Assembly: GCA_011048855.1 (NCBI GenBank)
Contig: DSCZ01000098.1
Location: 1-8,508 of the forward strand
Reading direction: 5' to 3'
DNA length: 8,508 nt
From: Desulfobacteraceae bacterium
Lineage (GTDB): Bacteria; Desulfobacterota; DSM-4660; Desulfatiglandales; Desulfatiglandaceae
Of this stretch, positions 1-8,508 are shown one piece after another. The position numbers were made by a program, and so were the translations under genes. The notes beneath the pieces are model-generated. The model was not told the origin of the DNA, ran no database searches, and saw only the letters and a list, made by a program, of their open reading frames with translations. Every line of letters begins with the position of its first letter. Within the stretch, counting starts at the first letter, position 1.

Positions 1-55
1 GTCCCCAATCGCTTCGCTTTGGGTCCCCGGTTTCTTGATCTTGGACAAAATGCCT

Positions 56-108
56 CATTTCCGATCTGGAAACTTCGCTGTGTCCATCCGGCATTTCCGG
101 ATGGAAAC
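56..108. repeat. Pair of TTTCC-N4/5-GGAAA dyads, candidate operator
   Basis: Two near-copies of one short dyad: CATTTCCGATCTGGAAAC at 56-73 and CATTTCCGGATGGAAAC at 92-108. Each has arms TTTCC and GGAAA, separated by 5 bases in the first copy and 4 in the second, and the copies are offset by about 36 bases. They sit just upstream of the predicted promoter at 124-152, with centres near -94 and -58 relative to a start near 159, a position typical of activator sites. The second copy is also part of a longer inverted repeat (79-109). Which protein might bind is unknown. The dyads are read directly; the operator role is inference. Confidence 0.4.
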
Positions 109-109
109 A
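79..109. repeat. Inverted repeat in the upstream region
   Basis: CCATCCGG at 84-91 is perfectly complementary to CCGGATGG at 97-104 around a 5-base loop. The pairing extends outward through T83-A105 and, past one mismatch (82/106), through 79-81 with 107-109. No run of T follows, so it is not a convincing intrinsic terminator for a gene to the left. It could be a DNA palindrome for a regulator, since it contains the second TTTCC/GGAAA dyad, or a small intergenic palindromic element. Confidence 0.45.
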
Positions 110-123
110 CAGATGATGTCTTG

Positions 124-152
124 TTGATTTTCAAATTGATTGGAAGTATATT
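124..152 (+). promoter_or_regulatory. Candidate sigma70 promoter of the operon
   Basis: TTGATT at 124-129 (matches TTGA of TTGACA) and TATATT at 147-152 (five of six to TATAAT) are separated by exactly 17 bases. Transcription would begin near 159 and give a leader of about 210 bases before the preferred start at 369. It is the best -35/-10 pair I found in 1-368 and the only obvious one ahead of the tightly packed genes. Not experimentally supported. Confidence 0.45.
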
Positions 153-203
153 TACATGTTAATAGCATGCCGTACCAAGGAAATCTCGAATAGCGATTCA
201 GGG

Positions 204-240
204 ATCACCTATCACCTCCTAGTCAGAGGTGTTGAAGGAG
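204..240 (+). promoter_or_regulatory. Leader stem-loop with anti-Shine-Dalgarno-like sequence
   Basis: ATCACCT occurs twice in tandem (204-210, 211-217) and the second copy continues as CACCTCCT (213-220), the core of the 16S rRNA 3' end. CACCTC (213-218) pairs perfectly with GAGGTG (226-231) around a 7-base loop. The overlapping CTCCT (216-220) can instead pair with AGGAG (236-240), so the two stems exclude one another. CTCC could also pair with GGAG of the ribosome binding site at 355-367. The layout would suit leader-mediated control of translation, but that is inference from pairing alone. The rest of the leader to 368 shows nothing else clear. Confidence 0.3.
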
Positions 241-354
241 TAGTGGGTCTTTCTTTGCAATAATAACAGGGAATATGCACAATGTCTCTTTCTGCTACAA
301 ACCTGAAAGTTTATGTCCATCCGAAAATTGGGGCAAGGAACCCAAAAATTTATA

Positions 355-367
355 GAGGGGAAGGGAG
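355..367 (+). promoter_or_regulatory. Ribosome binding site that decides the TolC-like start
   Basis: A purine-rich run, GAGGGGAAGGGAG, ends 1 base before the ATG at 369; its GGGGA core lies about 8 bases upstream, which is suitable spacing. The alternative in-frame ATG at 282 has only AGGGA at 268-272. The stronger site together with the signal peptide starting at 369 supports 369 as the true start. Confidence 0.6.
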
Positions 368-368
368 C

Positions 369-1937
369 ATGGTGTTCAGATACTTTCGTATTTTCAGCGT
401 CGTGTTGTCAATTTCGTTCATCGCGGTTTTTTCTGGTAGTTCTTCGGCGTTTGGAGAGGGTTCGGTTTCATCGCCGGAAACAGAGAGGGCGGGGTTACGG
501 TTGAGCCTGGATGATCTGATAAAGAGGGTTCATGAGAGAAATGAACGGATACATTATCAGCAGCTGGAATGGGGTATCAGCCAGGATGCAGTTAAAGACG
601 CGAAAGGGATTTTTGAGCCCCAACTGGTGACATCGTATCTTCATGATAAAAGCCATATCCCTAAAACAATCGAAGATTATTCGAGCCTCGGTTTCATAGA
701 TTCGGAAAACGACACATACTGGAAACGAAACAACGAATACAATGCTGCAGTTGAGAATATTCTGCCGACCGGCGCTCAGGTCCGCGTGGGTTATTCATTG
801 AAGGAGCTTCAGAGCAGTATGCTCAACTCCAGCGCAACCGACGCCCAGTATCAAACCTTCGTTGGCGGCAGCGTTGTACAACCGCTGCTCAAGAATGCCG
901 GAATCGGTGTTACGATGGCCAGTGTTCGTGTGGCGGAGGCAGATTCGGACATGGCGATGCAGGGCTACCGGAGGGAAATGCTTCAGGTGGTGGCGGAGGC
1001 CGCCTCCGCTTACTGGAATCTGTGCCTGGCCCAGGAAAAATTGAAAGTCAGGCGTGAATCGGTGAGAATTGCAGGAGAGATTTTGCGGGACAACCGTGAA
1101 CGGGTCCGGACCGGCAAGATGGCTCAAACCGAGGTAATGGAAGCTGAAGCCGGCCTCGCCCTTCGAAAATCCCTGGAGATCGCCGCAAAACAGGAATTGA
1201 TTTCAGCCGTGAACAATATCAAGACGTTGTTTTCGTTATCGACCGATGAGTCGGAAGAATTAATTGTGGCCGTGGACGCCCTCGCTCCCCGGGACATCAT
1301 TAATGTCGATTTCGAAAGCAGTTACCGCATGTCTCTCAAAATGCGCCCCGAATATATTTCAACCATGAGGAAGATCGAACGGGAAGGCATCAGAATTGCC
1401 TATGCCGAGAATCAGAGATGGCCCCAACTGGATCTCAAGGCCAGTTACGGGATCAACGGCCTGGATGATGCGAGTCCCAGGGGCTCCTGGAGTATGGCCA
1501 AAGACAGGGACTATGAAAGCTGGACTGTCGGCCTCGAACTCCGAATACCGCTGATGGGCGGGCGAAAGGCTAAAAGCGAGCTTGCAGCGGCAAAAAAGAG
1601 GAAAGAGCAGACATTGCTGGAACTGAAAGCCACCGAGGTGGCCCTTGCAAACGCGGTGGACACGTCGATCAAAAACGTCCGGAATGCTCTTTCACAGGCG
1701 GATAGCTACGCGGAGGCTGTAAGGCTCAACGAACATCTGCTGAAGGTGGAACTGGCACGGTTGAATGCGGGTATAAGCAACAGCCGCCTGGTTCTCGATC
1801 GGGACGAAGAATTGAACAGGGCCAAAGAATATTATCTGGAAAGCCTTGTGAACTTTGAAAAGGCCTTCATCGCGCTCAGGGCGGTTCAAGGCAACCTGCT
1901 CAGGAATTACGGAATCGATATCATGGAGGAGTCATGA
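369..1937 (+). CDS. TolC-family outer membrane efflux/secretion channel
   Basis: Predicted trimeric outer membrane channel with a periplasmic helical tunnel, the exit duct of a tripartite export system. From ATG 369 the product is 522 residues, close to the usual 450-500 of the family. Residues 1-29 form a signal peptide: basic start MVFRYFR, hydrophobic stretch to about 21, likely cleavage near AFG-E. Two related outer-membrane-efflux repeats follow. The first includes VVQPLLKNAG (169-178), WNLCLAQEKL (216-225) and VRTGKMAQTEVMEAEAGLA (246-264). The second includes the strand LELRIPLMGG (389-398) and LNAGISNSRLVLDRDEELNRAK (465-486), which mirrors the first-repeat motif. The strand signals and long amphipathic helices are typical TolC features. 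The in-frame ATG at 282 would add 29 residues and bury the signal. The stop overlaps the next start (ATGA), implying translational coupling with the adaptor. The TolC-family call is firm; the substrate is unknown. Confidence 0.93.
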   Translation: MVFRYFRIFSVVLSISFIAVFSGSSSAFGEGSVSSPETERAGLRLSLDDLIKRVHERNERIHYQQLEWGISQDAVKDAKGIFEPQLVTSYLHDKSHIPKTIEDYSSLGFIDSENDTYWKRNNEYNAAVENILPTGAQVRVGYSLKELQSSMLNSSATDAQYQTFVGGSVVQPLLKNAGIGVTMASVRVAEADSDMAMQGYRREMLQVVAEAASAYWNLCLAQEKLKVRRESVRIAGEILRDNRERVRTGKMAQTEVMEAEAGLALRKSLEIAAKQELISAVNNIKTLFSLSTDESEELIVAVDALAPRDIINVDFESSYRMSLKMRPEYISTMRKIEREGIRIAYAENQRWPQLDLKASYGINGLDDASPRGSWSMAKDRDYESWTVGLELRIPLMGGRKAKSELAAAKKRKEQTLLELKATEVALANAVDTSIKNVRNALSQADSYAEAVRLNEHLLKVELARLNAGISNSRLVLDRDEELNRAKEYYLESLVNFEKAFIALRAVQGNLLRNYGIDIMEES

Positions 1938-2803
1938 AAACAGCAGTTTTTGGCAGATATAGCCGCGCAAATTCATTCCTTTTTTTTCTGATCTTTTTTT
2001 GCGCTTTTGCATTGATGGATTCGTTTACCTGTAGGACAGCGTTTGCGCAGAAGTCTGAGTTGATTGCCGGGATAACAGAGCCGATCAACGATGTGACCCT
2101 GAGCCTTTCGGTTCCCGGAATCGTTTCCAAAATTTTTGTCAGGGAAGGTGACCAGGTAAGCAAAGGTCAGATTCTTCTTCACCTGGACAAACGCGCGGAA
2201 GAGCTGGAAGTGTTCCGCAGAAAAGTAATCTGGCAAAGCAAGGCTGAAGAGGAGGGGGCAATTGCCCGGGCTCAGACGTTGAAGGAGATTTATGAGTCCA
2301 CGTTGAATCTGTATGAAGCGACAAAATCCGTCAGTGCCGAAGAGTTGAAGAAGAGCCACCTGGAATTTATACTTGCGGTGGCTGAAAGGGACCGGATCGC
2401 TTCCGCTGAAAAGAGAGAAAAGATAGAGTATGATATAGCCCTGGAGATTCTCGAAAAGCGGAATCTTCGTTCACCCGTTGACGGTATCGTGATAAAGCTT
2501 TTTTATGAAGTGGGCGAGAGCTGCGAGGAGCATCAGCCGCTGGTTCGTGCCGTTGACACCAGCCGTGGGCGTTTTGTATGCAACCTCGATGAAAGCGTCG
2601 GAAGAATGCTTAAGAAGGGACAAGAGGTGGATCTCATGATTGGCTCGGGTCTCAACCCGGCGCCAAAGAAGGGGGTGGTCTCCTTTATATCTCCTGTAGT
2701 CGATTCTGCCAGCGGTCTTATGGAGGTGAAGGTGGAGTTCGACAACGAGGACGGCACAGTCCGGCCTGGTTTGGCGGGGGCGATGGTGTTCGATTTACCG
2801 TGA
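1934..2803 (+). CDS. HlyD/AcrA-type periplasmic adaptor, small form
   Basis: Periplasmic adaptor (membrane fusion protein) of 289 residues, expected to bridge an inner membrane component to the TolC-like channel. Residues about 14-29 are hydrophobic and end in a cleavage-like AFA-Q at 38/39. No lipobox is evident at C33, so the protein is either secreted or anchored by this segment. The first lipoyl half is about 55-85 (PGIVSKIFVREGD, KGQILLHLD) and the second about 178-208 (RSPVDGIVIKLFYEVG). Between them, 86-176 is a charged alpha-helical hairpin of about 43 residues per arm, the longest of the three adaptors here. Its turn lies near VSAEEL (133-138), where RND-type adaptors carry the TolC-contacting tip; the Ser is kept but the usual Arg and Leu of that motif are not obvious. 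A beta-barrel follows (212-289). The start overlaps the previous stop and has GGAGGAG at 1925-1931. The partner is unlikely to be RND, as none is encoded in the window. Confidence 0.88.
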   Translation: MKTAVFGRYSRANSFLFFLIFFCAFALMDSFTCRTAFAQKSELIAGITEPINDVTLSLSVPGIVSKIFVREGDQVSKGQILLHLDKRAEELEVFRRKVIWQSKAEEEGAIARAQTLKEIYESTLNLYEATKSVSAEELKKSHLEFILAVAERDRIASAEKREKIEYDIALEILEKRNLRSPVDGIVIKLFYEVGESCEEHQPLVRAVDTSRGRFVCNLDESVGRMLKKGQEVDLMIGSGLNPAPKKGVVSFISPVVDSASGLMEVKVEFDNEDGTVRPGLAGAMVFDLP

Positions 2804-2804
2804 A

Positions 2805-2826
2805 AAACGGCTTCGCTGTTTCTTTT
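2805..2826 (+). terminator. Short hairpin with T-rich tail after the first adaptor gene
   Basis: AAACGGC (2805-2811) pairs with GCTGTTT (2815-2821) through 7 pairs including one G-T, around a TTC loop, followed by CTTTT. It begins 1 base after the stop of the first adaptor gene, in the only real gap of the operon (2804-2897). The stem is weak and the T run interrupted, so a leaky terminator or a message-stability element is as likely as a true end. The rest of the gap, including a T7 run at 2882-2888, shows no convincing promoter. Confidence 0.3.
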
Positions 2827-2897
2827 GGCACCGGCCGTCCTGAAAATTTGTTGAGGCGGCTTCATCAATCCTAAGCATTCATTTTTTTCTATTATCC

Positions 2898-4799
2898 ATG
2901 AGGTTAACCGACGCAGGTACTGACCCTATGCTGCACACCCAAAGAGAATACGAAAATCCGGAAGCCAGGATGGAACAATTGCTGCGCGCCCTCGATCAGG
3001 TGAGGCATTTCGAGGGGCAGCCGCAGGAGTTCTGGCCTGCTTTCCTGGAAACGGCGTCGAACGTGGCGGGGGCACGCTTCGGCTTTCTGTTGATACAGGC
3101 CCAGGGAGAAGAGACCTGGCGGACCATTTCCCTGTGGCCTGGAGGGGGAGCTGCTGAAGTCCGCAGGCTGGGGCTGGGACCGGCTGTCGAGCAGATCGCG
3201 GATAAGTCCGGAGTCGATGGACAGGCCTGGGCGTCTTCTGATTTACCGGGAGCAAAGATCCCTGCGGGGGTCGTTTTGGGAATTCGACTGGAACTGCAGG
3301 ATGAAACCCGGCGGAGCGTCATTGTATTTTATGTGGAAGGCGCCGGAGTGGATTCCGTGAACGAACTGCTGCTGCGGCTTCATCTCGTGGCTGATATTCC
3401 TTTCACGTATCAGATGAACCGAATGGCTCTTCAGGCCAGGGAAGACGTGGTTCAGTTTGCGGAAGCGCTGGATCTGATGGTCGTGCTCAATGCTGAAAAG
3501 AAGTTCATGGGGGCTGCAATGGCCCTATGCAATGAAGTAGCTGCCCGGTACCGCTGTCAGAGAGTGTCTTTGGGTTGGCTGAAAGGGGCATACGTTCGCA
3601 TCCAGGCAATAAGCCATCTGGAGCGGTTTGAGAAGAAAATGGATTTGGTTCAGGCACTTGAAGCAGCTATGGAGGAGGCTTTTGACCAGGATGAAGAGAT
3701 ACTCCGTCCCCGGCCTGAAGGTGCGTTCACCGTCGTAAGGGATCACGAGGCCTACTGCCGTGCCCAAGACACCGAACACATGGTTTCGTTGCCGATCCGG
3801 GAGGATGAAGAACCGGTTGCTGTTCTCAGCTGCGAACGCACAGAGCAGTTTTCTGAAGCCGATTTGAGAGGCCTGCGGGTTATCTGTGATCAGGCTGCCC
3901 GCCGTATGGCGGATCTCAAAAGACACGACAGGTGGTTCGGGGCCAAAGCGGTTTCCTCTATCAGGTCAGGCCTTGCATGGGTGCTGGGGGTGGAGCATAC
4001 TTTCCCGAAGCTCCTGGGGTTGATTCTGGCGGGAGCGCTTGCTTTCGCGATTTTCGGGCAATTGAATTACCGTGTCGAAGGCAATTTTATCGTGCGAACC
4101 GATGACCTGGCTTATCTGCCGGCACCATTCGAAGGCTATATCAGCGAGGTTCATGTCAAGGTGGGAGACCTGGTTTCCCGCGGGAATCCCTTGCTTTCGC
4201 TGGACACGCGCGAACTTCTTCTCGAGGAATCCAACGCCCTTGCCAACCAGCATCGATATTCCCGTGAAGCCGAAAAGGCGCGCGCCCAGAACGCCCTTGC
4301 GGACATGAGGATCGCACAGGCTCTGGTCGCCCAGGCCGAGGCGCAACTGGATCTCGTGCGTTATCACCTTGAAAACGCCCATATTCGGGCACCGTTCAAC
4401 GGCATTATCGTGGAAGGAGACCTGAAGGAACTGCTGGGTGCGCCGGTCAGGAAAGGCGATGTGCTGTTTAAAGTGGCCCGTCTGGCCGAGTTGTATGCGG
4501 AAGTCGAGGTCAGGGAGCGTGATATTCACGAGATCTCTGTGGGGTCCGACGGCCAGATTGCATTTGTCAGCCAGCCGAAATTGAAATTTCCCATTCATAT
4601 TGAGCGCATCGACCCCGTAGCGCTGCCAAGGGAGGAAGGCAACGTGTTTCTTGTAAGGGCAAGCCTTCCTGAAGAGATCCCTACGTGGTGGCGCCCTGGG
4701 ATGAGCGGCATGACCAAAATCAATGTGGGGAAAAGAAATGTTCTGTGGATCGTGACGCATCGGACCGTGGATTTCTTCCGGATGCTGCTGTGGTGGTGA
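2898..4799 (+). CDS. GAF-GAF-transmembrane-HlyD fusion adaptor
   Basis: An inner membrane protein of 633 residues that joins cytosolic sensor domains to a periplasmic adaptor. Residues about 42-170 resemble a GAF domain (FWPAFLETASNVAGARFGFLL); residues about 200-340 form a second, clearer one (GAAMALCNEVAARYRCQRVSLGWL, then SLPIREDEEPVAVLSCE and ADLRGLRVICDQAARR). A single hydrophobic segment spans about 371-389. The periplasmic part has a lipoyl half 407-436 (APFEGYISEVHVKVGD), a short helical hairpin 437-493 (about 27 residues per arm), the second lipoyl half 495-527 (IRAPFNGIIVEGD) and a beta-barrel to about 610. No cyclic-nucleotide GAF signature is obvious, so the ligand is unknown. The start is uncertain: ATG 2898 lacks a ribosome binding site. 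ATG 2928 (residue 11) and ATG 2970 (residue 25, preceded by GGAAG at 2960-2964) are in frame and plausible. The stop lies 1 base before the M50 gene. Confidence 0.85.
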   Translation: MRLTDAGTDPMLHTQREYENPEARMEQLLRALDQVRHFEGQPQEFWPAFLETASNVAGARFGFLLIQAQGEETWRTISLWPGGGAAEVRRLGLGPAVEQIADKSGVDGQAWASSDLPGAKIPAGVVLGIRLELQDETRRSVIVFYVEGAGVDSVNELLLRLHLVADIPFTYQMNRMALQAREDVVQFAEALDLMVVLNAEKKFMGAAMALCNEVAARYRCQRVSLGWLKGAYVRIQAISHLERFEKKMDLVQALEAAMEEAFDQDEEILRPRPEGAFTVVRDHEAYCRAQDTEHMVSLPIREDEEPVAVLSCERTEQFSEADLRGLRVICDQAARRMADLKRHDRWFGAKAVSSIRSGLAWVLGVEHTFPKLLGLILAGALAFAIFGQLNYRVEGNFIVRTDDLAYLPAPFEGYISEVHVKVGDLVSRGNPLLSLDTRELLLEESNALANQHRYSREAEKARAQNALADMRIAQALVAQAEAQLDLVRYHLENAHIRAPFNGIIVEGDLKELLGAPVRKGDVLFKVARLAELYAEVEVRERDIHEISVGSDGQIAFVSQPKLKFPIHIERIDPVALPREEGNVFLVRASLPEEIPTWWRPGMSGMTKINVGKRNVLWIVTHRTVDFFRMLLWW

Positions 4800-4800
4800 T

Positions 4801-6960
4801 ATGACAAAACCCGGAAGAACGTTCAGCGAATCCTGGCATCGAATATCCAGGCTTAAAATAAGCCTCGGTCCGACCGTTAAGGCACGAAAACAGCTTTTCC
4901 GCGGCGAAATCTGGTACGTCCTCTACGACCCTTTCAACAACCAGTATTTTCGTCTTCGCCCTGAAGCATACGAGTTCGTGGTTCGGCTGCGCCGGGACCG
5001 CACGGTTGAGGAGGTATGGGAGGAATGCCTGCGTCGAAATCCGGAAGGAGCCCCCGGCCAGGAGGATGTACTTCAGCTTCTGACACAGCTCTATTTCGCG
5101 AATTTGCTGTATTTTGACGTTCCCGCCGACAGCGCCAAGTTGTTCGACCGTTACAAGAAGCGCCGGCAGCGCGAGGTTCGTTCCAAGCTGCTGAGCATTA
5201 TGTTTTTCAGGCTTCCGCTGCTGGACCCCGAGTTTATGCTTCGTAAGATCAAGCCGTTGCTCAAACTCATCGTGGGCCCCCTAGGTGCGGTCATCTGGCT
5301 TGCGGTGGTGGCGGCAGCGGTAAAAGTGGTTGTCGACAATTTCGATACGGCTACTTCCCAGATTCAGGGAATTCTTTCGCCGGCGAACCTGCCCTTGCTG
5401 TACCTCGGGCTTGTCATTGTAAAGACGATCCATGAATTCGGCCACGCATTCGTCTGTAAACGCTTTGGTGGAGAAGTTCACGTTATGGGCGTGATGCTTC
5501 TTGTGTTTACGCCCCTTCCATACATCGACGCCACGTCGAGCTGGTCCTTCCGGAGCCGATGGCATCGGGCACTTGTGGGTGCTTCGGGAATGATCGCCGA
5601 GATATTTGTCGCAGCACTGGCTGCGTTTTACTGGGCTCATTCGGCACCAGGCACGTGGAACAGCATCGCCTACAACATGATGGTGATTGCTTCGGTGTCC
5701 ACGGTGCTGTTCAACGCAAACCCGCTTCTTCGGTTCGATGGCTATTATATTCTTTCGGATCTTCTGGATATCCCCAATCTGCATACCAGGTCCACCCGCC
5801 ATCTGCGACACCTCTGCGAATATTACCTGTTCGGTTACCGTGATTCGAGCAGCCCGGCGGAAACCGGAAAGGAAGCTTTCTGGCTGACTGTATTCGGCAT
5901 CCTGAGCGGAATATACAAGGTGGTGGTGTTCGCTGGAATCATTCTGTTCGTTGCGGACAAGTTTCTCCTTCTGGGCTTGATGATGGCTTTTTTCTGCATT
6001 TTTGCCTGGGGAGTGGTACCTCTGTACAAATTTGTGGTCTACCTGGCATCCAGCCCGAGGCTTGCCAGGAACCGGGTGCGTGCCGTGGGGGTGAGCCTGT
6101 TGCTTTTCTGTACGATTTTCGGCCTGTTGGGTTTTTTTCCGGCGCCTAATCGTTTCAGGGCCCCAGGAGTTCTTGAGTCGGTCAACTATGTCCGTGTGGT
6201 CAACGACGCGCCGGGCTATGTGCTGGAAGTGGCGGTTCCTTCCGGATCGGAAGTAGCTCCCCGAACCCCGTTGATGGTGTTCGGAGACAGGGAGCTTGAG
6301 TTGGAAATCCAGCGATTTCAGGCACAACGGGACGAAACTTTTGCGATGGAATTGAGAGCCCGCACCGAGAGGGTGGCCGACGTGGAACCCATTTTAAAAC
6401 GTTTGGAGACCATCGAAGCAAACCTTAAAAATCTCGAGCGACAGAAGGCGGAATTGACGGTCCGTGCACGGCAGCAGGGCATATGGGTTTCACCGCAAAG
6501 CACGGAAATGGTGGGGACTTGGCTTCCCAGAGGCACGGTGCTCGGTGAGATTGTGGATCCATCCAGTTTCCGTTTTTCTGCAGTGGTATCCCAGGAAGAG
6601 GCCGCCAATCTGTTTGTGGATCAAAAAATGACACAAGCCGAGGTCCGACTGTACGGACAGGTGGCAGGAAATGTTGATGTCACCGGGGTGAGTATCATTC
6701 CATTCCAGCATGAAAGACTTCCCTCTGCTGCCCTTGGCTGGCGGGGAGGTGGGCAGGTCGCCGTCTCGCCTTCCGATGAGCAAGGCGTGCAGGCGGCGGA
6801 GCCTTTTTTTCAGATATATGCTTTTACCCGGGCACACGAAGATGTAATGTTTTTTCATGGAAGGACCGGCAAACTTCGGTTCACTTTGAATTCCGAGCCG
6901 CTTCTGCTGCAATGGGGGAGAAAATTGCGGCAACTTCTCCAGAAGAGGTACCAGATCTGA
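4801..6960 (+). CDS. PqqD-like/M50 metalloprotease/HlyD fusion (YydH-like)
   Basis: A 719-residue inner membrane zinc protease of the site-2 (M50) superfamily with an adaptor tail. Residues about 32-108 look like a PqqD-type winged-helix domain (RGEIWYVLYDPFNNQYFRL, then RTVEEVWEE); PqqD relatives bind leader peptides of modified-peptide precursors. Transmembrane segments appear near 155-178, 196-218, 228-240, 256-278, 288-305, 360-385, 388-412 and 428-446. The zinc site is intact: HEFGH at 211-215 and the distal ligand region NPLLRFDGYY at 307-316 with D313. After the last segment, 455-600 is a barrel-sandwich module with a short helical hairpin (about 497-557), followed by a beta-rich C terminus. 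Proteins of this arrangement are often labelled peptide zinc metalloprotease YydH, a family name rather than a proven role. It may process the exported substrate, a regulator, or serve as the inner membrane platform. It starts 1 base after the previous stop and its own stop overlaps the SecA-like start, so coupling is likely. Confidence 0.9.
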   Translation: MTKPGRTFSESWHRISRLKISLGPTVKARKQLFRGEIWYVLYDPFNNQYFRLRPEAYEFVVRLRRDRTVEEVWEECLRRNPEGAPGQEDVLQLLTQLYFANLLYFDVPADSAKLFDRYKKRRQREVRSKLLSIMFFRLPLLDPEFMLRKIKPLLKLIVGPLGAVIWLAVVAAAVKVVVDNFDTATSQIQGILSPANLPLLYLGLVIVKTIHEFGHAFVCKRFGGEVHVMGVMLLVFTPLPYIDATSSWSFRSRWHRALVGASGMIAEIFVAALAAFYWAHSAPGTWNSIAYNMMVIASVSTVLFNANPLLRFDGYYILSDLLDIPNLHTRSTRHLRHLCEYYLFGYRDSSSPAETGKEAFWLTVFGILSGIYKVVVFAGIILFVADKFLLLGLMMAFFCIFAWGVVPLYKFVVYLASSPRLARNRVRAVGVSLLLFCTIFGLLGFFPAPNRFRAPGVLESVNYVRVVNDAPGYVLEVAVPSGSEVAPRTPLMVFGDRELELEIQRFQAQRDETFAMELRARTERVADVEPILKRLETIEANLKNLERQKAELTVRARQQGIWVSPQSTEMVGTWLPRGTVLGEIVDPSSFRFSAVVSQEEAANLFVDQKMTQAEVRLYGQVAGNVDVTGVSIIPFQHERLPSAALGWRGGGQVAVSPSDEQGVQAAEPFFQIYAFTRAHEDVMFFHGRTGKLRFTLNSEPLLLQWGRKLRQLLQKRYQI

Positions 6961-8508
6961 TGCTTCCGACCCATGATTACCGCCGCACTCAAATTATCAC
7001 TCCGGAGAAGCTTCATCAGGGACTCGACGGTATGGTGTACGGACTTGTGGGTCAGTACAAAAGATTCCCCCTTCGCCGGAGAAGATATCGCAGAAGGGCC
7101 GAGGAGATTTCAGGAAAATCACTCGAGCTGAGGAACATTTCAGATCGGAGATTGCGCAACCGTATGGAAGATCTGGCGGGGGAGTTCCGCCGGGTTGGAA
7201 GGCCTCATTACAAAGCGGTTGAAGAGGCTCTTGCCATGCTGGTGGAGACGGCTCAACGAACTCTTGGGTTGCGGCCTTTCATGGTGCAGGTATGGGGAGC
7301 GTTGGCTCTCCACGATTGCTACCTGATTGAGATGGCGACGGGTGAGGGCAAGAGTCTCACGGCATGTCTTGCAGGAGTTCTTGCAGGATGGAGCGGAAGG
7401 CCCTGTCATATCGTAACTATAAACGATTACCTGGCAAACCGGGATGAAAATGAAATGAGGCCTTTTTATTCCTACTGCGGGGTCAGTGTCGGCAGCGTAA
7501 CCGGGCAGATGGATCCCCGTGAACGCCGTGATCAGTACAGTAGGGGGGTCGTGTATACCACCAGCAAAGAGTTGGTGGCCGATTTTCTGAGGGACCGCAT
7601 CATTCTGGGGCAGTACCAAAACGCCGGGCGCAGGATGCTGCGAAGTTTATTGCTGACTGGAAAGCGGGCGTTTCAGAATTTGGTCCAGCGGGGGATCGAT
7701 ACCGTTATCGTTGATGAGGCCGACAGCCTGCTGATCGATGAGGCAGTGACGCCTTTGATTATTTCGAGGGCACAGGAAAATCGACCACTTGTGGATGCCT
7801 GCGCATCAGCGTATACGGCGTGTCGAAACCTGGTTTGTGGTACCGATTACAAAGTGGATTTTAAGTATCGTGAGATAAGGCTGACGAAAGAAGGGAAGAA
7901 GAGCATAGAAGCATCGGCCGACCTGCTGCCGGCCATCTGGCAGGGGGCCTCCCGCCGCGAGGAACTGGTTTTGCAGGCTCTGACAGCCAGAGAGTTCTAT
8001 GACCGTGACAAACAATATGTGGTACAGAACGGCAAAGTGGCGATCGTCGACGAGTTCACCGGGAGGTTGATGGCCAACAGGACATGGCGGCACGGGCTTC
8101 ATCAGTCCGTTGAGGCGAAAGAAGGCCTGGAGGTCAGCAACCCCAGCGAAACACTTGCACGGCTCAGTTTTCAGAGGTTTTTTCGTTTTTTCAGAAAACT
8201 TTCAGGTATGACGGGCACCGCCAGTGAAGCCGGCGGAGAATTCTGGCATATCTACGGGTTGCTGGTTATGGCTGTTCCAACGAACCGTCCATGTGTCCGA
8301 AAAGAGTTGTCTGACCGTATCTTTGCGGTGGAAGAAGAAAAATGGTCCGCTATCACCAACGATATCCGCAGGCTTCATGAAACCGGGCGCCCGGTCCTCG
8401 TGGGTACCCGCAGCGTCAAAGCCAGTGAGAAACTAGCGGTGATGCTGCAGGCGGAGGGCCTGGAATTCAATCTCCTGAACGCCGTTCGACACAAGGAGGA
8501 AGCACGTA
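6960..8508 (+). CDS. SecA-like preprotein translocase ATPase, 3' end missing
   Basis: N-terminal 516 residues of a SecA-family motor; the frame stays open to the window end. ATG 6960 overlaps the M50 stop (TGATG), with AAGAGG at 6943-6948. Clear SecA landmarks in order: Q-motif region LRPFMVQVWGA (104-114), Walker A TGEGKS (127-132, K131), NDYLANRD (155-162), VDEADSLLIDEA (251-262) with DEAD-box D252/E253, preprotein cross-linking domain ending at VDEFTGR (363-369), GLHQSVEAKEG (379-389), GMTGTA (416-421), PTNRP (440-444) and PVLVGT (478-483) opening the second motor domain. Compared with E. coli SecA it has about 18 extra residues between RDRI (212-215) and VDEAD, a shorter cross-linking domain (by roughly 25), V263 where IDEARTPL has Arg, Ser for Thr in Walker A, and a very basic stretch at 34-46. 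The divergence and operon position suggest a dedicated paralogue rather than the housekeeping SecA. Whether the wing, scaffold and C-terminal zinc site exist cannot be seen. Confidence 0.92.
   Translation, partial: MLPTHDYRRTQIITPEKLHQGLDGMVYGLVGQYKRFPLRRRRYRRRAEEISGKSLELRNISDRRLRNRMEDLAGEFRRVGRPHYKAVEEALAMLVETAQRTLGLRPFMVQVWGALALHDCYLIEMATGEGKSLTACLAGVLAGWSGRPCHIVTINDYLANRDENEMRPFYSYCGVSVGSVTGQMDPRERRDQYSRGVVYTTSKELVADFLRDRIILGQYQNAGRRMLRSLLLTGKRAFQNLVQRGIDTVIVDEADSLLIDEAVTPLIISRAQENRPLVDACASAYTACRNLVCGTDYKVDFKYREIRLTKEGKKSIEASADLLPAIWQGASRREELVLQALTAREFYDRDKQYVVQNGKVAIVDEFTGRLMANRTWRHGLHQSVEAKEGLEVSNPSETLARLSFQRFFRFFRKLSGMTGTASEAGGEFWHIYGLLVMAVPTNRPCVRKELSDRIFAVEEEKWSAITNDIRRLHETGRPVLVGTRSVKASEKLAVMLQAEGLEFNLLNAVRHKEEAR

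Follow-up and report, generated by a model that had tools for sequence, protein, structure and literature searches.

The stretch of DNA analysed here, hereafter the window, comprises 8,508 nucleotides of a Desulfobacteraceae bacterium (GenBank assembly GCA_011048855.1, contig DSCZ01000098.1, positions 1 to 8,508 of the forward strand). Between positions 369 and 8508 it carries five co-directional genes, encoding a TolC-type outer membrane channel, a HlyD adaptor, a GAF-HlyD adaptor, an M50-HlyD protein and a SecA-like ATPase. We put forward, with a probability of about 0.77, that this block specifies a TolC-dependent, envelope-spanning exporter dedicated to giant surface proteins with an N-terminal LEPR-XLL tag. 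The genes, together with the domain proposed to read the tag, are as follows:

369..1937, + strand: TolC/OEP-family outer membrane channel (Pfam OEP, 1.3e-36; N-terminal hydrophobic segment, signal-peptide-like)
1934..2803, + strand: free HlyD-family periplasmic adaptor (HlyD_D23, 2.1e-15; NCBIfam RND_mfp above cut-off; N-terminal hydrophobic segment)
2898..4799, + strand: GAF-HlyD adaptor (N-terminal GAF, 1.6e-7; C-terminal HlyD_D23, 1.5e-19; hydropathy)
4801..6960, + strand: M50-HlyD protein (RRE-like domain at the N-terminus, then the membrane M50 metalloprotease part carrying HExxH, and an adaptor fold at the C-terminus)
4801..5145, + strand: RRE/PqqD-like domain, proposed tag reader (M50-HlyD residues 1-115; AlphaFold2 (AF2) model, Pfam PqqD, matches to RRE structures)
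6960..8508, + strand: SecA-like ATPase, truncated at the 3' end by the window border (SecA_DEAD, 3.3e-87; PPXD; P-loop)

This layout agrees throughout with the first-pass annotation of the window. The TolC and HlyD genes share an ATGA overlap at 1934, a space of 94 bases precedes the GAF-HlyD gene, a single base separates the latter from the M50-HlyD gene, and the M50-HlyD gene runs into the SecA-like gene through a TGATG junction at 6958-6962. The signal-peptide-like start of TolC lies at 369 in a frame that at its longest opens at 282, and the SecA-like ATG at 6960 is accompanied by a further in-frame ATG at 6912. The Pfam domains above cut-off are OEP, HlyD, GAF together with HlyD, SecA DEAD, PPXD and P-loop. 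According to hydropathy, the GAF-HlyD protein has a single hydrophobic segment (residues 367-391), placed between its GAF region and its HlyD part. The window ends inside the SecA-like gene, and the comparison was made on relatives, not on the window's own genome. Upstream of tolC, at 79-109, there is a 13-nt inverted repeat with a 5-nt loop and no Rfam match; no riboswitch was detected in bases 1-3000 (Rfam, E up to 1).

Conservation of the Gene Block

Of the 7998 candidates scored in a search with the M50-HlyD protein, 5809 had E values of 0.001 or less; the 120 matches listed cover 98-100% of the query, with relatives at 63-88% identity. Scanning a genome collection yielded at least 80 loci from many phyla, whose titles include Desulfuromonas, Thermodesulfovibrionia, Verrucomicrobia, Elusimicrobia, Omnitrophota and Spirochaetales, as well as Gemmatimonadetes, Magnetococcales, gammaproteobacteria and betaproteobacteria. 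The loci extend to 10 kb or to contig ends, some being cut by the latter, and the window is counted as the 81st. Bearers include cultured organisms, namely a Pelagicoccus isolate (L041) and Malikia spinosa (L079). Because the five-gene set is met again in these 80 loci across many phyla, we regard it as more than a chance arrangement, which speaks against the concern that the five families might not co-occur across genomes. The adjacency of the SecA-like, M50-adaptor and GAF-adaptor genes, whose conservation the first-pass annotation had proposed as a check, is widespread: the SecA-like gene follows the M50 gene in 65 of the 68 loci that offer more than 300 bases for it to be seen, and a GAF-HlyD gene is present in 74/77. 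TolC and HlyD occur together in 38/49 loci, and in five they lie upstream on the opposite strand. The commonest order is that of the window, TolC-HlyD-GAF-M50-SecA (30/81). In the three loci lacking a SecA-like gene after the M50 gene (L026, L030 and L049), a short SecA is found elsewhere in the genome, in two pieces in the case of L030. Furthermore, M50 and SecA distances are strongly correlated over 57 loci (Mantel r 0.89; 0/2000 permutations as high), a pattern that fits joint inheritance and also common descent of the hosts.

We then asked which engine could power the block. Neither an ABC transporter (Pfam, NCBIfam) nor an RND transporter (Pfam) was found among the five window proteins; these have no MFS domain either (Pfam), the locus flanks not having been searched for MFS. 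By motif search only, two ABC-like open reading frames (ORFs) turned up in 6984 frames of 81 sources, both starting more than 5 kb from the M50 gene, and a single RND-like ORF, so identified by our own reading, lies 5.7 kb from the M50 gene of L046. No non-block family recurs in more than seven loci (blastp E 1e-8, frames of at least 70 residues; shorter precursors not searched). A hidden ABC or RND engine nearby was thus not found in the loci of relatives, by blastp clusters or by motif searches, and the original proposal of a system lacking both holds for the window proteins and for the surroundings of the block in relatives, the window's own downstream region lying outside our view. One blastp cluster does adjoin the block in six loci (L044, L055, L056, L057, L058 and L062), and the three of these six that were scanned are all SapC (PF07277). 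SapC is known from S-layer secretion loci. A genome paper on Chromatium okenii (PMC6374484) mentions SapC and SapDEF.

A SecA Core Distinct from the Housekeeping SecA

Full-length relatives of the SecA-like protein are mostly about 660-680 residues long. In four of them (P0122, P0124, P0127 and P0226) the DEAD, PPXD and P-loop matches are kept and PF07516, the scaffold/wing region of SecA, is absent at E up to 1. P0122 can be aligned with SecA over residues 22-607 of chain 3jv2 and over residues 19-604 of chain 3iqy, which has 841 residues. The same protein scores 605.7 against the SecA model TIGR00963, whose curated cut-off is 800, and falls under the cut-off of every NCBIfam SecA and SecA2 model listed. 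The nucleotide-binding motifs are well conserved among the 55 frames longer than 600 residues, with an exact Walker A TGEGK in 51 and GR[CSA][AG]RQGD in 45. The idea of a SecA-powered system has to be qualified accordingly: relatives retain the ATPase core but lack the region with which SecA operates the SecY channel, and which we take to hold the two-helix finger entering SecY.

To place this protein among the other Sec components, 14 genomes chosen for the M50 protein were examined, in nine of which the short SecA itself was seen. Each has exactly one SecY (E up to 1e-10) and a single PF07516 match, located in a frame of 896-1344 residues. Three candidate explanations are ruled out by these counts, namely that the SecA-like protein is the sole housekeeping SecA of the relatives, since all 14 genomes encode a separate full-length one; that it is a split SecA with its missing part encoded elsewhere, PF07516 occurring only in the full-length frame; and that it belongs to an accessory Sec pathway with a SecY2, no second SecY being present. 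The first of these had been named in the first-pass annotation as a finding that would speak against its proposal, and is answered here for relatives only. In G228, G240, G246, G325 and G340 the full-length SecA was seen in addition to the short one. Separately, one SecA match (G219:C1:2262380) lies within a frame reported open for 24,580 residues, possibly masked sequence.

Giant LEPR-XLL Proteins Adjoin the Block

Examination of the flanking genes for a shared substrate family, also suggested at the outset, identified large frames that adjoin the block and open with the LEPR-XLL motif (NF012209), scoring above cut-off in 5/5 frames tested. The tag follows approximately the pattern F-x-[LVI]-E-x-[LM]-E-[PAQS]-R-[ILV]-L-L-S-[AG]. 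In at least 21 of the 80 loci, a lower bound given where the loci stop, frames of 300 residues or more contain a relaxed version among their first 120 residues, with 2 matches in the 352,245 residues further in. Of 22 motif matches, 21 have F at -5 and 18 have S at +7, the E at +1 being fixed by the search pattern and the R at +3 nearly so. In L001, which at 67% M50 identity is the locus closest to the window, 322 bases separate secA from the start of the tagged frame. We predict that the genome of the window also encodes a LEPR-XLL frame, most probably downstream of secA. More broadly, 19/22 nearest M50 to LEPR pairs on a shared contig are within 6.5 kb, a count that covers the genomes with both genes on one contig (21/35) and takes the nearest LEPR frame.

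These frames reach 19,216 residues. Ten C-terminal pieces of 950 residues contained RTX repeats in three cases, cadherin/Big domains in two, another domain in one and none in four; of four adjoining giant ORFs truncated at the 5' end, three carry RTX repeats. Compared by eye only, the ten ends of tagged frames look unalike, and no shared signal is apparent at the C-terminus, where type I cargo carries its secretion signal. Near the N-terminus, the best 19-residue hydropathy of the 22 motif-bearing frames ranges from 0.22 to 1.62, and no clear Sec signal peptide is seen in any of them (hydropathy only, no signal predictor). Several giant LEPR-XLL frames are found per genome in G113, G228, G038 and G116, some closely consecutive; G116 has nine LEPR-XLL matches, with frames of up to 17,972 residues. 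Additionally, c-di-GMP-I riboswitch aptamers occupy the interval from secA to the tagged gene in one locus (L005:12876-12953) and just before the tolC of the block in another (L002:5443-5533), which is suggestive of surface or biofilm control.

The association extends beyond the immediate neighbourhood. In the genomes carrying the loci (40 of the 80 loci covered), a LEPR-XLL match above cut-off is present in 35/40. We further examined genomes drawn evenly from three taxa, with a 90% completeness filter requested and completeness values not reported. In the class of L041 (141 genomes) LEPR-XLL occurs in 15/16 genomes with the M50 protein versus 8/125 without it (Fisher p 1.2e-13), the latter falling to 3/125 when the frame must have at least 1000 residues; in the class of L053 (184 genomes) the figures are 15/16 versus 5/168 (p 6.0e-17), and in the phylum of L004 (148 genomes) 5/6 versus 7/142 (p 8.2e-6), all p-values treating genomes as independent. 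Four genomes in the draws (G027, G038, G034 and G004) were already known through the M50-selected loci. In the Verrucomicrobia-class draw the M50 bit cut was set after seeing the gap (474 and above versus 284 and below), and a looser threshold gives 20/32 versus 3/109; in the phylum of L004, two of the M50 matches score low (G452, 221 bits; G455, 338 bits). The M50-only genomes G353 and G464 have no short SecA, and G124, with an M50 fragment, has one. Among 14 named control genomes only Deinobacterium chartae gave a LEPR-XLL match at E up to 0.1, which disappears at E up to 0.02. Because they are encoded beside the block and co-occur with it in three draws, the LEPR-XLL giants are likely its cargo.

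A Predicted RRE-Like Domain in the M50-HlyD Protein

The metalloprotease part of the M50-HlyD protein is just under the Pfam cut-off in the window (Peptidase_M50, 24.4 versus 27.2 bits), with HExxH present in 73/73 M50 frames longer than 650 residues, the window included. The first 115 residues of the whole protein form a PqqD/RRE-like domain overlooked in the first-pass annotation. The AF2 model of this domain (pLDDT 89.4), Pfam and matches to RRE structures together point to a PqqD-like winged-helix fold, so that the protein is predicted to begin with an RRE-like fold. Pfam PqqD was matched in 31/51 family members at E up to 1 (best 1.5e-5), the window's own sequence being under the cut-off (20.8 versus 23.4). 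The model of the whole protein (pLDDT 70) is too weak for the membrane part. RRE domains bind the leader peptides of ribosomally synthesized and post-translationally modified peptides (RiPPs), and the RRE-like domain is likely a recognition domain.

Proposed Mechanism and Alternatives

In the mechanism that we envisage, the RRE-like domain would bind the LEPR-XLL tag in the cytosol, much as RREs do with the leader peptides of RiPPs. Made from the same operon, the short SecA-like ATPase would pass the chain, still unfolded, through the inner membrane at a platform formed by the M50 and GAF adaptors, and the three adaptors would form with TolC a conduit to the outside. The M50 protease may clip the tag. 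Of the distinct envelope-spanning exporter postulated in the first-pass annotation, the comparison upholds, in relatives, a TolC/HlyD system with its own SecA relative and no recurring ABC or RND engine; export itself and the inner-membrane route are carried forward as proposals.

Several observations weigh against this exporter model. Five of the 40 system-bearing genomes, mostly metagenome drafts, have no LEPR-XLL match. The draws contain 20 LEPR-only genomes, and five of the eight tested (G056, G146, G245, G281 and G448) have no short SecA; the other three (G436, G179 and G481) do, in G179 at a distance of some 300 bases from the LEPR frame. In 11/49 loci at least one of TolC and HlyD was not found, riboswitches are limited to 2/42 loci scanned, and the window stops within secA, which leaves its own LEPR gene, SecA C-terminus and genome outside our view. 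For the RRE-like domain, the top VIA rows are non-RRE structures and Foldseek gave no E below 0.001. Finally, a single ordinary SecY is present, and SecYEG could still be the channel.

The last point leads to an alternative scenario, in which the short SecA hands the tagged giants to ordinary SecYEG and the adaptors and TolC collect them from the periplasmic side. The one SecY of all 14 genomes and the retention of the SecA core with its PPXD speak for such a two-step route, which we nevertheless hold to be unlikely, given that the channel-working part of SecA is missing in relatives and has no split partner, and that the tagged frames have no clear Sec signal peptide. More improbable still is a role of the block in processing or anchoring LEPR-XLL proteins that exit otherwise, for instance by an ABC type I system or by Sec. 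The invariant HExxH would suit such a role, as would the RTX repeats of some giant ORFs, these repeats being familiar from ABC type I cargo; yet a TolC and a HlyD are usually part of the block itself, and its surroundings show no recurring ABC exporter. An exporter of RiPPs or small molecules, with the LEPR-XLL link merely one of neighbourhood, would account for the RRE-like domain and the daptide-protease-like M50 part, but is very improbable in view of the co-occurrence in three draws, the giant tagged genes adjoining the block and the blastp result that no other family, among frames of at least 70 residues, recurs in more than seven loci.

Relation to Known Systems and Implications

An exporter of LEPR-XLL giants would share with type I secretion (HlyB-HlyD-TolC) the TolC-type channel and the HlyD adaptor, in some cases giant cargo with RTX or cadherin domains and, in our model, a one-step conduit. 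It differs in that no ABC transporter was found and a SecA-like ATPase is present instead, in that the proposed cargo shares an N-terminal tag, and in the fusion of adaptors to GAF and M50. RND and MFS tripartite pumps contain an RND or MFS transporter, whereas the window proteins include neither; ABC, RND and MFS are the engines named in a review that covers tripartite and type I machineries (PMC8277102). With SecA and accessory SecA2 the block has the NBD1, PPXD and NBD2 core in common; its relatives differ in lacking PF07516 and a second SecY, and P0122 in its scores under the SecA/SecA2 cut-offs. The RRE-containing RiPP proteins (PqqD, lasso B1, daptide M50 protease) offer the RRE-like fold joined to an M50 part, but the M50-HlyD protein is fused to a HlyD part, is under the daptide protease cut-off of NCBIfam (176 versus 300) and has giant proteins adjoining it. 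The LEPR-XLL domain proteins themselves (NF012209), the proposed cargo, are mentioned once each in the portions seen of PMC10868602 and PMC9611531, with no link there to an export system. A previous description of the five-gene set was not found in the open literature, a search that left out most subscription papers and all preprints.

Whether the block deserves the rank of a separate secretion system type, with SecY-independent passage through M50-HlyD and GAF-HlyD, a stripped SecA core, an RRE-read LEPR-XLL tag and cargo of up to about 19,000 residues, is a tentative matter, to which we give slightly less than even odds; the SecY-independent route is the one that we tentatively favour. The giant LEPR-XLL proteins gain a concrete candidate exporter. 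Furthermore, our results suggest that a TolC system has taken over the ATPase core of SecA as its engine, and that the leader-peptide recognition of RiPP biology may help to export proteins that are among the largest in bacteria.
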